Below, piece after piece: positions 1,516 to 21,024 of a DNA stretch of 64,000 bases; the stretch's first letter is position 1; every line of letters begins with the position of its first letter. The notes under the pieces were generated by a model, which had not been told where the DNA came from, ran no database searches, and worked only from the letters and a program-made list of their open reading frames with translations. Source of the DNA: an uncultured Bacteroidales bacterium. Lineage in GTDB: Bacteria; Bacteroidota; Bacteroidia; Bacteroidales; UBA932. A program made the translations under genes and the position numbers. The stretch lies in contig CAMIYB010000002.1 in NCBI GenBank assembly GCA_946402945.1, positions 40,415 to 104,414 of the forward strand. The letters run 5' to 3'.

Positions 1516-4500
1516 TTAGAATGAAATGTTTACACCCAGATTCCAACTTTGCATCAGCGGATAGTTGCATCCCATGCTGCTGGTCCCGACCGTCTTCTCC
1601 GGATCGAAGGGCTTGACGAAGGGGTCGCAGAGGGTGAACACGTTGTTGGCGTTGACGTAGAAGCGGACTTTGCTGATGCCGATACGCGTCGTCCAGCGTT
1701 GCGGGAGCGTGTAACCGATCGTCAGGTTCTTCAGACGCAGGTAGGTGACGTCCCGCCGCCAGACGGAACTTTCCAGATAGTTGGAGCCGGCGTCGGTAAT
1801 CACACGGGTCGAAGGCCATTTCCCCGGAATCCACTCACTGGTATCGTCAAACATGTCCGTCCGATGCCAGCGGTCGTAGAAATAGGCGGGGGTGTTGAGG
1901 TTGTAGGCCAGCACCTCGGCGTACATCTCCTTGAAGCGGATGGTGTTGAATCCGGAGCCATGGAAGACCAGGGAGAAGTCCAGCCCTTTCCAGGAACCGG
2001 ACAGGGTCAGTCCATAGAACAGTTTCGGATAGCCGCTGTAGAAGAGCGGAACCATGTCATTCCCGTCGATGACGCCGTCTTCGTTCATGTCCTTGTAACG
2101 GAAGTCGCCCGGAAGGATCTTGTCGTTGCCGCGGGCCCCGTTCTGGACCGGCGCCTGGAGAATCTCCTGCTCACTTTGGAACTGTCCCTCCAGGACATAG
2201 CCCCAGTACACATCGTTGTACCGGTTGGCACGGCCGTTCAGCCAGCGCTGCCGGGTACTGGAGAATTCCGCCTCCTCGACATAGAGGTTCTGGGAACGGG
2301 CATAATTGAAGTTGCCGGAAATGCTGTAGTAGAAGTCCCCGGCATGGCCGTTCCAGGCCGCCGTGAAGTCGATGCCGAAGGTGCGGTCGCTGTTGAGGTT
2401 TTCCTGCGGGAGACTGGCTCCGAAGGTGTTGGGCAGCGACAGGAGGCGGCTGGACAGCAGGCCCGACCGGTCGCGGTCATACACATCCACGGAGAAGGTC
2501 AGGGCATTTTTCAGGAAACCGAAATCCAGGCCGATGTCCGCCATCTTCGAGGTAAACCAGGTCAACTTGTCATTAACCAGCGCGGGAGACGCCGCACCAG
2601 TCGTCCAGACGCCGTCCGTGAACTCATATCCCCCGCCGCCGGTCACACTGAAACCGGGAATATACTGGAAGGGCTTGCCGTTGTCTTCGCCCACCAGACC
2701 ATAGGAGGCGCGCAGTTTCAGATAGGAAATGACGCGCTGCCGTTTCATGAAAGGCTCCTCCGAGACGCGCCATCCGGCCGAGACGACGGGGAAGAAGCCC
2801 CATCGCATCTGCGGACTGTACAGGCAGGAACCGTCATACCGGAAGGAGGCGTCCAGCAGATACCTGTCTTTGAACGCATAGGACAGACGGCCGATGTAGG
2901 ACATGCTCGTCTCGTCTTTTTCCATACCGGAGGTCTTCATGTTGTTCTCGCTGGCCAGGTCCACCTGGTCCCCCGTATAGAAGGAGTATTCCCGGAGAAG
3001 GGAACTGGTACGGCTGTGGTAGCCGGTCTGCTCATACACGAATGTCGCTTCCACCTGGTGCTTCCCGCCGAACAGGTGGGAATAGGCAAGCATGGCCTGC
3101 AGGGTGGTCAAGCCGGACGTGGTGTAGGCATTGCTGATGGTGGACGGACCGTTCTTTTCCTGCGGAGAATAGGGAATGTCCGCCGTCTCGTCGTAAACAT
3201 AGAGGTTGTAAGCCTTGTTGAGCGTCTTGGTGGAGATGTCCCGGTAGTTGTAACTGAAGTTCACCTTGGCGTAGAGCCCTTCCAGGAAAGGGAAATCATA
3301 GCGAAGGGCGGCGGCGCCGTTGAATACCCGGTCATCCGTGTTGCTGTAGCCGGAGACGCCGGACATGGACTTCGCCAGGGCATGGCCGTAAGAGGTGACG
3401 GCCATGTAGTCGGGGTTGCCGTTCGCATAGATCGGCTCAGTCGGAAGGGCCGTCCGGGAAGCGAAGAAAACGTCATAGAACCCGCCGACAGTGCCCTTCT
3501 TGCGGTCCTCGGAGCCGGACAACTGGAAGTCCAGATGGAGGTGGTCCGTGATGTTGACGTTGACATTGGAGCGGAAATCCACCTTGTTGTATCCCAGGTC
3601 TCCGCTCCGCAGCAGGCCTTCGTCCGTCAGGTAGCCGGCTCCGACGTAATATTTCGCGCGCGGGGTCGCCCCTTCCACGGAGAGGTGGTATTGGCGCTGG
3701 GTCGAAAAGGGTTTGATGACGGCGTTGTACCAGTCGGTGGACGGCGCGGCCGCCTCCTGCGCGAGTTGCTCCCGCGTGTAGGCGGGCGTACCATTGTAAA
3801 TCATGGCCTCATTGTAGAGTTCGGTCCACTGCTGCCGGTTGCTCATCGCCGGCATATCCGTCGGCATCTGGATACCGGCCACCGCTTCGAAGGAAAGGAC
3901 GGGCCGCTTGGAGGAACCCGTCTTGGTCGTGACGATGACGACGCCGTTGGCGCCGCGGCGGCCGTACACGGCACCCAGGGCATCCTTGATGACCGAAATG
4001 CTTTCAATGTCATTCGGATCCAGCCGCTGGAAAATGTTGTTGCCGGAGACCTGCGGGATCCCGTCCACGACATAGAGCGGATTGCCGAAGCCGCGGATGT
4101 TGATACTGGTGCTGAAGGAGCCCGGTTCACCGTTTTCCTGCCGGATCTGCAGACCTGCCACTTTGCCGGCCAGGTCCTGCGCCAGGGAGGAACTGGTCGC
4201 TGTCTTGAGTTCCTTCCCTCCGCCGATGCTCGAAACGGCCCCGGTCAGGTTTTCACGTTTCCGCACGCCGTAGCCGATGACCACCGCATCGTCCAGCCGT
4301 TCCGCCTCGGCCAGCAGGACAAGGGTCTTCCCATCGATTTCGCGGGCCTGTGCCGTGTACTCCTTGAACCCCAGGAAACTGATGTTCAAGACCTCTTCCG
4401 GACCGGCTTTCAACTCGAAGTTGCCGTCCAGGTCGGTGGTCGTCGAGGCGCGGCTGCGCGAACTGAACACGACCGCTCCCGGGACAGGGGCGCCTGACTC

Positions 4501-14687: not shown

Positions 14688-14888
14688 CCAAACCCTGTTC
14701 CTCCAACTGCCCTGCGAAGCCCCTTTCTGGCAACAACCCGCGACCGTCCTCGCCATCTCTGACACCAATCTGCAACTAATCTCGCCGTCCTATGTAATTC
14801 CACCCTTGCAACAACCCGCGGTAGCCTCACCTTCTTGCACGATTTCTTCCTGGCAACAACACACCAAACTTTCCAACGCGTCTTCTCT

Positions 14889-14991
14889 GGCAACAACCCG
14901 CGGTAGCGCCGCGAGCCGCTATCTCGAGCTCGCAAGGCAGCGTTCCGCGAGGTTGTAGCCGGCGGCCTGCGTTCCTGCCGCCGGCGGTGAC
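14889..14991 (+). repeat. Left arm of a long structured inverted repeat
   Basis: GGCAACAACCCGCGGTAGCGCCGCGAGCCG...GCCGGCGGCCTGCGTTCCTGCCGCCGGCGGTGAC aligns along its length with the reverse complement of 16104-16206. Confidence 0.85.
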
Positions 14992-15248
14992 AGCCTCATC
15001 TCCATTCCTCCACCTCAACACCCCGCAACGGGCTTTTCCTCCAAAACACATCCTGTCCCCGAATACAGATCCCAGCCTCCGAAAACGCGTTCTTCGGTCA
15101 GGCCACCGCTTCCGAAAAGAAATCCTGCTCCGAAAACGCGTAAAATGGATATCGCTGATTTACAGCGCCTTATCGACTCTTCTTTTCAATAAATAGCGAA
15201 AGAGGAAACGATAGTTGATTAATTATCAACGAACTACATTTTACGGGC

Positions 15249-15660
15249 ATTGTGCCGTCCAATCCGTTTTGTCTTGATCCGCCCTGATATAAGTTTACCG
15301 ATGTTGAACAGCAGATGGTCAGGACACCCCACTTTCGCCGTGGAGGGTAAGTGACTGAATGGCAAGATGAACTGCAAAGTCCCTGTCTGAGTTTCAATAC
15401 AGGGACTTTTGCATATCGTGAGATAGACAGACAAATAGCCTCCACGCAGATTGTGTCGACCAATCCGTTTTGTCTTGATCCGCCCTGATATAAGTTTACC
15501 GATGTTGAACGGCAGATGGTCAGGACACCTCGCTTTGGCTGTGGAGGGTAAGTGACTGATTGACAAAATGAACTGTAAAAGCGCTGTCCGAGTATACAGA
15601 CCGCGCTTTTTAATTATCGCAAGATAGACAGACATATAGCATCCACGCTTTTTTTAGGAA
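15249..15660. repeat. Two tandem about 201-bp units plus the start of a third
   Basis: CAATCCGTTTTGTCTTGATCCGCCCTGATATAAGTTTACCGATGTTGAAC(A/G)GCAGATGGTCAGGACACC occurs twice at 201-bp spacing; third ATTGTGACCGTC at 15660. Confidence 0.92.
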
Positions 15661-15859
15661 TTGTGACCGTCGTACGCATTGGCGGGTCAATCGTTCATAG
15701 AAGGTACTGTAAGACACATCGAAGTATCAATACAGCAAGGGGAATTGGAGTAAAGGGGTGCTGAGGGGGCGCGGACGTAAGGGTGCGCTGATGTCACCGC
15801 CGCTGGATGGAATGCGTTCCGTGGGCTGTTGACGGTGGAGAGATGGGATCCGGCCAGAC

Positions 15860-15925
15860 GCAGGAGAGAGTCCTCCTGCCAGTCCAGTCAGTGGACCTGC
15901 AGGCACACTTTATGGTGTGTTGCAG
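15860..15925. repeat. Three consecutive short stem-loops
   Basis: GCAGGA..TCCTGC (15860-15879), CAGTCCA..TGGACCTG (15880-15899), CTGCAggCACAC..GTGTGtTGCAG (15897-15925). Confidence 0.6.
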
Positions 15926-15982
15926 GTACGATGTCGGCGGATAAGATGAGCGGGAACAGAAGAGGGTGCGGACAGTTTGCAG

Positions 15983-16096
15983 GCACAGTAAGTAGCGGGA
16001 TAGAGAATTCGGGGGGGAATGGCTAGCACAGCAGGCAGCGGGATAGAGAATTCGGGGAACGGATAGCACAATAGGCAGCGGGACAGAGAAGGCAGT
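15983..16096. repeat. About 40-43-bp degenerate tandem repeat, three copies
   Basis: GCACAGTAAGTAGCGGGATAGAGAATTCGGGG / GCACAGCAGGCAGCGGGATAGAGAATTCGGGG / GCACAATAGGCAGCGGGACAGAGAAGGCAG. Confidence 0.85.
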
Positions 16097-16103
16097 GCAT
16101 GAA

Positions 16104-16206
16104 GGCACCGCTGCCGGCGGAAACGGCGGCCGGCAGCTACAAGCGCGCGGGTCGCTGCCTAGCGAGCTCGACGGAACGGCTCGCGGCGCTACCGCGGCTT
16201 GTTGCC
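16104..16206 (-). repeat. Right arm of the structured inverted repeat
   Basis: Reverse complement GGCAACAAGCCGCGGTAGCGCCGCGAGCCG...GCTGCCGGCCGCCGTTTCCGCCGGCAGCGGTGCC aligns with 14889-14991. Confidence 0.85.
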
Positions 16207-16418
16207 TGAGCAGGGAGCGGGTGCGAGAAGGGTTAGAAGGATAGCAGAGAGTTTAGGAAAAGGTCATCTAGTGAAGAGCCTTGCGGCTTGTAGCCCGGGT
16301 GCAGGGAGAGGAAGGGATGTCTTGCGGGTGAGCAAAGAGCGGCGGAGTTGTAAAGGGCGGGTGCAGCCTACTTTTCTGCCCTCCCCGAAAACACGTCTTG
16401 CAGTCGAAATAAAACGTC

Positions 16419-16439: not shown

Positions 16440-16471
16440 CTCTAACAGGTTGATTGATAAAGAGGATTCCC

Positions 16472-16596
16472 GGTCGAGCCGGGAACGACGAACAATGGGC
16501 AAGCCGGGAACGACGAACAATGGTCGAGCCGGGAACGACGAACAATGGGCAAGCCGGGAATGACGAAAAACAGTCAGGCCAGAAATGATGGTCGAT
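16472..16596. repeat. Five tandem 25-bp units (A-B-A-B-degenerate)
   Basis: GGTCGAGCCGGGAACGACGAACAAT alternates with GGGCAAGCCGGGAACGACGAACAAT; first unit lies in a TTCCCGG-TCGAG-CCGGGAA hairpin (16467-16485). Confidence 0.92.
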
Positions 16597-16616: not shown

Positions 16617-16735
16617 GCCGGAACTAGAGGCGGAACTCAGGCCAGAACTCTAAACTGGAACTTTGAACTGGAACTCGGGCTAGAACTCTAAACCAGAACT
16701 CTGAACTGGAACTTTGAGCCAGAACACTGAGTCAG
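16617..16735. repeat. Degenerate minisatellite (about 13-17-bp GGAACTCTRAACT-like units)
   Basis: Run of CCGGAACTAGAGG CGGAACTCAGG CCAGAACTCTAAACT GGAACTTTGAACT GGAACTCGGG CTAGAACTCTAAA... Confidence 0.75.
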
Positions 16736-19026: not shown

Positions 19027-21024
19027 TCAGAGTTTGAAAACGACGGAGGAACGACCCTCCAGCGAAAGGGAACCGTTGCTGACGGAGTATGTACCCAGGG
19101 AAGCGACCGGATGCGAGAGGTCATCTTCGAGGGGAATGGTCACGGCACCGGCAGATACATTGTGGACGACAAGCATCTTCTCCGACCCGGCGCTCATGTA
19201 CCAGGCGGCGATGCCGTTATAGGTGGAATTGTCCTCGTTCAGGAGGGCATGGCGCGACATGACGCCGCGGCCCAGGGCCGGATAGGCGTTGCGCAGCCGG
19301 GTAAAGTTACGATAGACGTTCAGCAGAGACGAGGCGTCGGCCCGCTGGGCCTCCACGGAAATCTCCGGGGTGAGCAGGTCATTCATGATATGACCGTCCA
19401 GACCGCCCTTGGCCGCCGTTCCGCTGCGGTCCCAGACGATGGGCTGGCGCACATATTCGTCGCGTCCGCCGTCATCGTAGTCCTTGCCCCAGTAGCCGAG
19501 TTCCTCACCCTGGTAGATGTAAGGCTCGCCGGAGGCGGTCAGGAGGATGGCCGCCGCCTGCTTCATCTTGTCCATGTCCCGGTTCAGGCGCGTGGCGGCA
19601 CGGGTCTCGTCGTGGTTGGTGAGTTTGGTCGCCGCGATGGCGTCGGAACGGTATCCTGCATACTGGTTGCGGTAGGACAGCAGGTCCTTGCACAGATAGC
19701 GGCCGGTCCTTTCGTTCAGGGCCCACACCAGGCGTTCCCAGAAGTCGAATTCGAAGCAGGCGGGTAGTCCCTTGTAATAGGGGGCCACCTTATCCGCGCT
19801 CATCCACACTTCACCGACCATATAGATATCGCTGTCGTGTGTTTTGCGGAAAGTGGTGTTGCAGCGGTCGTACCAGGCCTTCAGGAAGGTCGGGTTCTCG
19901 TCCGAGGTCTCGGAATGGTAGATGTGCTTGACGGCATCCAGGCGGAAGCCGTCCACGCCCATTTCTATCCATTTGTCGGCCGTTTCGGCCAGGGCGAGGA
20001 AGGGACCGGAAGAAGAAGCCGTCGCCAAGGGACCGTAATTCAGGTCCGGCATCCAGCCGCCGCCGAAAGCTCCATGGAACCAGGCCTTGGTCGGCTTGCC
20101 GAAGACAATGTCCTTCGCATCGTTGCTGACCAGTTGAAAGGGCTCTCCCAGCGTAATCATCTGCGCAGAGGCGCTGCCTCCCCACTTGGTTCCGGCGCTC
20201 CAGTCATCGCCCGTCGAAGTGCGCACCAGGCATCCCCAGTCGGAGTCGAAATCGATGGTCACGTGGTACTTGTCGCCACCGTCGGCGTAGAAACGGGCCT
20301 GCCGGCCATTGCCGAAATACAGGTAAAGGCTGATGGAAGTGTCCGTATTGAAAGGGTCGGCCGCGGCGGTCGTGGCGGTGGCGGTCAGTTTCTTGGTACC
20401 CCAGTCCAGGTCGAAACGGAGGAGCCCCTTGTAACCCAGGTCGCCGATGGTTGTCTCGTGCCATTCGCCCGCATTGTACTGGCCGGCGGGAACCATCGGG
20501 ATGCGGCCCATCGTCACGTCCACGTTGGGGTTCTCCGAGAAAATGTACCAGTCACGATAGCCCTCCACACCCCGCTTGGCCTTGTCGAACCAGGGATGGC
20601 CCTTGCCGGTGTGGTTCAGCACATAGTCGAGGTATATCTTGATGCCCCGGCGGTGCGCCTCATCCAGAAGCGTCTGGAAATCTCCCTCAGTGCCGAATTT
20701 GGGATTGAGGGCGGCGTAGTCGGTGACATCGTAGCCGTGGTAGGAGTCGCTCGGATGGACGGGCGAGAGCCAGAGGGCGCTCACCCCCATGTCCTCGAGG
20801 TAATCCAGGTGCTGCACAATGCCCCGGAAATCACCCACGCCGTCGCCGTTGCTGTCGGCGAAACTGTACACCTGCAGCTGGTAGGTAATGTGGCCCTCGC
20901 GGGCTTCCTGCTGCTCTTCCGGGATGACGACAGAACTGTCACCTTCCGCCTGGGGAAGGGGCTCCTGCCCGCAGGAGACGGCCGCCAGCAGCAGCGCCAG
21001 AAGTAGATATCGGACTGGTTTCAT
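19027..21024 (-). CDS. GH13 alpha-amylase lipoprotein (SusG-like role)
   Basis: Lipobox LLAAVSC; IYLDYVLNHTGKGHPWF, GVDGFRLDAVKHIYH, MVGEVW, LTNHDETR motifs. Confidence 0.94.
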   Translation of the reverse strand: MKPVRYLLLALLLAAVSCGQEPLPQAEGDSSVVIPEEQQEAREGHITYQLQVYSFADSNGDGVGDFRGIVQHLDYLEDMGVSALWLSPVHPSDSYHGYDVTDYAALNPKFGTEGDFQTLLDEAHRRGIKIYLDYVLNHTGKGHPWFDKAKRGVEGYRDWYIFSENPNVDVTMGRIPMVPAGQYNAGEWHETTIGDLGYKGLLRFDLDWGTKKLTATATTAAADPFNTDTSISLYLYFGNGRQARFYADGGDKYHVTIDFDSDWGCLVRTSTGDDWSAGTKWGGSASAQMITLGEPFQLVSNDAKDIVFGKPTKAWFHGAFGGGWMPDLNYGPLATASSSGPFLALAETADKWIEMGVDGFRLDAVKHIYHSETSDENPTFLKAWYDRCNTTFRKTHDSDIYMVGEVWMSADKVAPYYKGLPACFEFDFWERLVWALNERTGRYLCKDLLSYRNQYAGYRSDAIAATKLTNHDETRAATRLNRDMDKMKQAAAILLTASGEPYIYQGEELGYWGKDYDDGGRDEYVRQPIVWDRSGTAAKGGLDGHIMNDLLTPEISVEAQRADASSLLNVYRNFTRLRNAYPALGRGVMSRHALLNEDNSTYNGIAAWYMSAGSEKMLVVHNVSAGAVTIPLEDDLSHPVASLGTYSVSNGSLSLEGRSSVVFKL

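Follow-up and report, generated by a model that had tools for sequence, protein, structure and literature searches.

A dispersed three-way-junction element in a genus of gut Bacteroidales, and its possible REP-like nature

Two copies of a structured element in the window

The stretch of DNA analyzed here (64,000 nucleotides of an uncultured Bacteroidales bacterium, contig CAMIYB010000002.1; hereafter "the window") contains two copies of a structured, intergenic, multi-copy element whose helices covary among its relatives. On balance, we regard these copies as members of a dispersed, genus-restricted, non-autonomous REP-like single-strand-DNA element with a new architecture.

The initial annotation had described positions 14889–14991 and 16104–16206 as a long inverted-repeat pair. 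The match itself was confirmed: 14882–14989 and 16106–16213 align over 108 nt with 81% agreement as reverse complements, and the right arm recovered the left arm with E = 4.8e-24 in a whole-genome search. The term "inverted-repeat pair" is nevertheless too strong, because the arms belong to two independent copies rather than forming the two ends of a single element; the copies represent one each of two sub-types and face each other by chance. Both arms folded far better than shuffled sequences (z = −4.1 and −3.3; no shuffle was as good). A helix closing around both hairpins, P1 (CTGGCA/TGACAG on the left, CAGGCA/TGCCTT on the right), had been missed in the initial annotation. Because P1 is present, the fold is a three-way junction of P1, a long hairpin (P2) and a second hairpin (P3). 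The three paired substitutions noted earlier between the arms are all present (C-G to G-C in the outer stem, and C-G to T-A and G-C to C-G in the 3' hairpin), and a fourth is located in P1. The copies, their parts and the truncated 5' ends nearby are listed below in window positions.

14887–14993, + strand: W_left (sub-type A), entire three-way junction (model match 14886–14995; alignment A3)
14887–14892, + strand: P1 5' strand CTGGCA, partner TGACAG at 14988–14993 (fold; P1 covaries across copies)
14893–14956, + strand: P2, long hairpin ACAACCCGCGG...CCGCGAGGTTGT with inner GCGAGC/GCTCGC (fold of W_left)
14955–14958, + strand: GTAG tetranucleotide at the foot of P3, a REP-like guide position, its GT paired inside P2 (sequence; alignments A3 and A4)
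14958–14985, + strand: P3, hairpin GCCGGCGGC/GCCGCCGGC with a CGTT core in the loop (fold of W_left)
16103–16208, − strand: W_right (sub-type B), entire three-way junction, P1 AGGCA/TGCCT (fold, alignment, model match)
14727–14747, + strand: truncated element 5' end, first ∼20 nt (window repeat family D5)
14805–14825, + strand: truncated element 5' end (window repeat family D5; whole-genome match C2:55219–55239)
14846–14860, + strand: truncated element 5' end (window repeat family D6)

The MAG to which the window belongs (1.72 Mb in 96 contigs, 70.6% complete) was searched with a covariance model, as had been proposed, and nine full copies were found on six contigs, together with many truncated 5' ends in the whole-genome search. 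An assembly artefact, which the initial annotation had named as a possible source of the region, is ruled out by the distribution of these nine copies over six contigs and by the presence of homologues in dozens of MAGs that were assembled independently. Sub-type A comprises W_left and the copies on contigs C61, C76 and C57, and sub-type B comprises W_right and two copies each on C48 and C52. Among the nine copies, both sides had changed in 8 of the 39 base pairs, and no pair varied on one side only. The tetranucleotide GTAG was present in eight of the nine; TTAG, TGAG and CCAG were found in other genomes.

Tandem arrays with a period of about 46–48 nt were observed directly upstream of full copies, the repeated unit consisting of the first ∼20 nt of the element and its 5' flank (L080 (G000:C75), 1–300; L064 (C52), 3150–3310; L212, 1030–1150). 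These arrays of truncated 5' ends were perhaps generated by replication slippage at the hairpin. They were rejected as a general feature of the element, as they were found only in C75, C52, the window and G168, and were absent upstream of the 46 copies inspected in eight further genomes.

Family range, consensus and spread as a unit

Of the 200 genomes of the genus that were searched with a covariance model of the nine copies, a sample of one MAG per species in which the MAGs are fragmented at the repeats of interest, 44 carried full-length relatives, with up to 13 per genome. A broader covariance model found no such relative in 294 genomes from elsewhere in the order. The element family is genus-restricted. 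Thus, the non-autonomous, REPIN-like or structured-RNA family that had been proposed from the two arms is borne out by the copies in this genome and its congeners, whereas a Bacteroidales-wide spread is not. The P3 pattern matched 109 stretches in 85,488 species genomes; the 80 matches listed were all in Bacteroidales-type MAGs, mostly from herbivore guts, and the named genomes among them were Candidatus Cryptobacteroides and Candidatus Cacconaster. The names of the matched genomes point to Cryptobacteroides as the host genus. The same pattern had no match in a viral collection. For the window and nine related loci, no Rfam family matched the element above the gathering cut-off, and a scan at a weak threshold gave only chance-level matches. 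In a literature search, no paper was found that joins "Cryptobacteroides" with "repetitive extragenic palindromic."

The consensus is nnGCAACAG - P2 - CTGTAGC - P3 GCCGGAGnnCGTATATTCCGGC - CGG - TGCnn, with a total length of about 90–110 nt across the family and about 105 nt in this MAG. P1 consists of GCA/TGC and about 2 bp more; P2 may have any sequence, with a tip that often reads GAGCC..TT..GAGCTC; and the loop of P3 is conserved.

The boundaries of the element were clearest in the congener G208, in which copies a, d, e, g and h, with different flanks, match pairwise mostly over the element alone. Their agreement ends within ∼2 nt of the element 5' end and ∼5 nt inside the 3' end of the model. 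Agreement confined to the element shows that, in at least one genome, it spreads as a unit of its own. Likewise, W_left agrees with the copies on C76 and C61 to +3 upstream and to +1/−1 downstream, and the complementarity of the flanks ends two bases beyond GCA/TGC. We also considered whether P1 was captured as the stem of a palindromic target (insertion in terminator tips), and rejected this because pairing past that point did not exceed the control. In G177, G184 and G015, the copies share longer blocks, so larger repeats can also carry the element. Copies spaced a few tens to hundreds of nucleotides apart are often oppositely oriented (G119, G127, G146, G168, L327 and L328), and direct pairs also occur (C48 and C52). 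No clean empty orthologous site was obtained, the neighborhood not being conserved in relatives.

Transposase genes beside the element

The copies are intergenic, and with genes approximated by the longest open frames, 41 of 97 copies lay between convergent genes, which was the commonest setting. In the collected loci, all nine REP-type (Y1/RAYT) ORFs were within 1 kb of a copy; 68% of the examined sequence was > 1 kb from a copy, so the probability of this arrangement by chance is ∼3e-5. The distance from the RAYT stop codon to the element 3' end was −22 (L278), +7 (L280) or +14 nt (G025). The earlier statement that no transposase lies beside the arms is therefore correct for the window locus but does not extend to other loci, where copies abut transposase genes. 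In this MAG, at the completeness given above, no Y1_Tnp and no RAYT homologue was found. At the level of whole genomes the association was absent, with RAYT genes in 28 of the 44 genomes with the element and in 98 of the 156 without it (OR 1.04), and most of the RAYT genes sampled had no adjoining copy. The element was tracked only by close relatives of the G025 RAYT (9/14), and phylogeny may explain this.

Beside copies, IS256 and IS3 transposases were no less frequent than RAYTs. At many loci, the gene for an IS256 Zn-variant transposase (NF048019) ends −4 to +6 nt from the element 3' end, always in convergent orientation. At L268, the left TIR lies at −993, the element at 0–100, and right TIRs at +111 and +152, and a second TIR type has the same layout in G215, G027, G026 and G023. 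As a right TIR lies beyond the element, the element copy is inside the IS256-type IS, and such copies take up precisely the interval from the stop codon to the right TIR. An IS3 transposase similarly ends within ∼5 nt of the copy at L287. Among the IS256 Zn-variant copies examined, about half lacked the element. An IS1182-like element (terminus CGTAAAATG) was considered as a carrier, as several copies in this MAG face such an end, but solitary copies elsewhere and the IS256, IS3 and RAYT cases lack it, and it was treated as a neighbor.

The position directly behind the stop codons of unrelated ISs may reflect a site where insertion is preferred, or a module that ISs use as an end or a terminator. 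It is possible, as a secondary reading, that the element is a structured DNA satellite that parasitizes or is used by mobile elements generally, sitting exactly behind the stop codons of IS256, IS3 and Y1/RAYT transposases and within the right end, being exchanged horizontally and also spreading alone. The occurrence of one unit behind several unrelated transposase families raises a testable question about small structured elements that ride on or regulate ISs.

A rather doubtful explanation is that the element is a portable 3'-end module of ISs (a terminator, an insulator or part of the right end), with solitary copies being remnants or MITE-like derivatives. The tight spacing behind IS256 Zn-variant and IS3 genes, with the right TIR on the far side and two TIR types, argues for it, as does the resemblance of P2 to a two-way terminator in A+T-richer genomes (L280, L278 and L323). 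Furthermore, the related IS256 Zn-variant elements without the junction (L382, L380 and L383, in G214, G221 and G166) have a simple hairpin immediately after the transposase gene, and this hairpin is formed from the right TIR (GGTTGGTGGAATGC...GCATTCCACCAACC). However, no IS256 or IS3 TIR or gene adjoins most copies, including all nine of this MAG. A MITE of a TIR transposon would have the terminal inverted repeats of a known IS and a target-site duplication; the solitary copies inspected had no IS256/IS3 TIR, and the pairing of the element stopped two bases outside GCA/TGC. The IS256 Zn-variant genes were detected in just 17 of the 200 genomes and not in this MAG, the element joins transposases that are unrelated to each other (IS256, IS3 and Y1), and P2 lacks a T-run in GC-rich genomes.

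Covariation and the folded strand

In alignment A4, which contains 76 distinct copies, changes on both sides were found at 511 pair positions, against 170 in shuffles. Standard pairs accounted for 89.9% of the pair positions (69.9% when shuffled), and only 30–49% were paired when the structure was slid along the sequence. A second set, A5, gave covariation in agreement with A4; its loci were picked by a P3 pattern, a choice that biases the P3 pairs but leaves P1 and P2 unaffected. Fitting to the model, as was done for both alignments, favors pairing. Covariation was found in all helices of the three-way junction. The initial suggestion, made from the two arms, that a folded RNA or single-stranded DNA is under selection is thus supported by covariation beyond chance in a larger alignment, with folded DNA favored over RNA on the grounds given below.

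An RNA is expected to show G-U pairs on its own strand. The reliable pairs comprised 2,083 Watson-Crick, 17 G-T and 13 A-C pairs in A4, and 2,572 Watson-Crick, 34 G-T and 13 A-C pairs in A5, so that G-T and A-C each made up ∼1% or less. By comparison, tRNAs from the same loci had 29 G-U (5.8%) and 0 A-C among 502 pairs. Because G-T and A-C are both rare and the Watson-Crick pairing is near-symmetric, these counts suggest that the fold is constrained as DNA rather than RNA, or that the palindromes are corrected during replication. Judged from these sequence comparisons, the structure of the element is under selection, probably as DNA. The rarity of both mismatches provides a concrete sequence test for DNA versus RNA folding.

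We accordingly consider it unlikely that the element is a structured RNA (a small RNA or 3'-UTR element) selected at the transcript level. Its stable fold, conserved loops, strong covariation and bias toward gene 3' ends would suit such an RNA, but G-U pairs are far rarer than in the tRNAs, their other-strand equivalent A-C is similarly rare, the genomes contain 1–13 copies with unrelated neighbors, and Rfam has no match.

Comparison with known systems and a proposed model

REP sequences of the GTAG superfamily are single hairpins of 20–65 nt with GT[AG]G at the 5' foot, which TnpA_REP cleaves as a single strand at CT; most descriptions of REP-like elements come from Proteobacteria, where they are single hairpins. 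The element resembles REPs and REPINs in that it is intergenic, has many copies, a genome-specific sequence and a fixed fold, bears, in most copies of this MAG, a GTAG foot before a GC-rich hairpin (P3), frequently forms inverted pairs, and is enriched next to Y1 transposase genes in the collected loci. It differs in being a ∼100-nt three-way junction instead of one short hairpin, in having the GT of GTAG base-paired in P2 and a variable tetranucleotide, and in its low copy number (1–13) and the failure to find an enzyme in this MAG. Since the single short hairpin that defines REPs is absent, we do not class the element as a REP. A GTAG foot with a hairpin is the REP signature read as a single strand by TnpA_REP (PMC8266576).

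The closest known description is that of the "atypical secondary structures" that flank TnpA_Y1 genes of subclass 2.6 in Bacteroidetes, which are weaker and without GT[AG]G (Quentin et al., 2018, PMC6006769). Both concern unusual folds beside a Y1 gene in Bacteroidetes, with more copies in the genome. The fold of our element, compared with these structures by description only, is strong, and GTAG is common in it. The RAYT adjoining the element in G025 (NHFH, YVGNNP) appears closer to subclass 2.4. As for the right ends of IS256 Zn-variant and IS3 elements, copies of the element take up the whole stretch from the stop codon to the right TIR there, but the element also occurs alone and beside Y1 genes.

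Based on these comparisons, we propose that the element would work like a REP sequence. The fold would form on single-stranded DNA, for example on the lagging-strand template, and a Y1/HUH enzyme of the TnpA_REP (RAYT) group may recognize P3 and the tetranucleotide, cut beside P1, and then move or copy the unit. Watson-Crick pairing of the stems on both strands would be maintained by selection for recognition or by strand-templated correction of the palindromes. In this MAG, the enzyme may have been lost or may lie in the unassembled 30%; as it is missing from the assembly, the copies here may be relics. If the element is REP-like, a strongly covarying three-way-junction form in a large gut genus would widen the range of RAYT substrates.

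The core sites of integron attC sites read RYYYAAC...GTTRRRY. An attC-like recombination site is similar in size, single-strand fold and place directly behind stop codons, but is highly improbable here, because the core sites are missing from the boundaries (the ends read GCA...TGC), the preceding genes are complete ISs with their own TIRs, and the copies are dispersed in both orientations without cassette arrays.

Other repeats around the window copies

Between the two arms lies a MITE-like element of 108 nt (window 15139–15246) with inverted ends CGTAAAATG...CATTTTACG, a second copy of which is on contig C8 near 19690–19800. The CGTAAAATG terminus was also found on IS-like ends at the contig ends of C76, C52, C48 and C93, and in G162, an IS1182-family transposase adjoins a related end. 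Window 15249–15648 consists of a unit in two tandem copies (199 nt, 85% alike), pieces of which are found again next to the element in contigs C48 and C52. Farther to the right, window 16447–16596 is a tandem repeat of 25 nt (GGTCGAGCCGGGAACGACGAACAAT) that includes half of a GTCATTCCCGGCTTGACCGGGAATC-type palindrome, and this palindrome is also located 5' of element copies in C48 and elsewhere. The same intergenic block contains a short tandem repeat of the GGAACTCnGGCCAGAACTCTAAACT type at 16632–16720.
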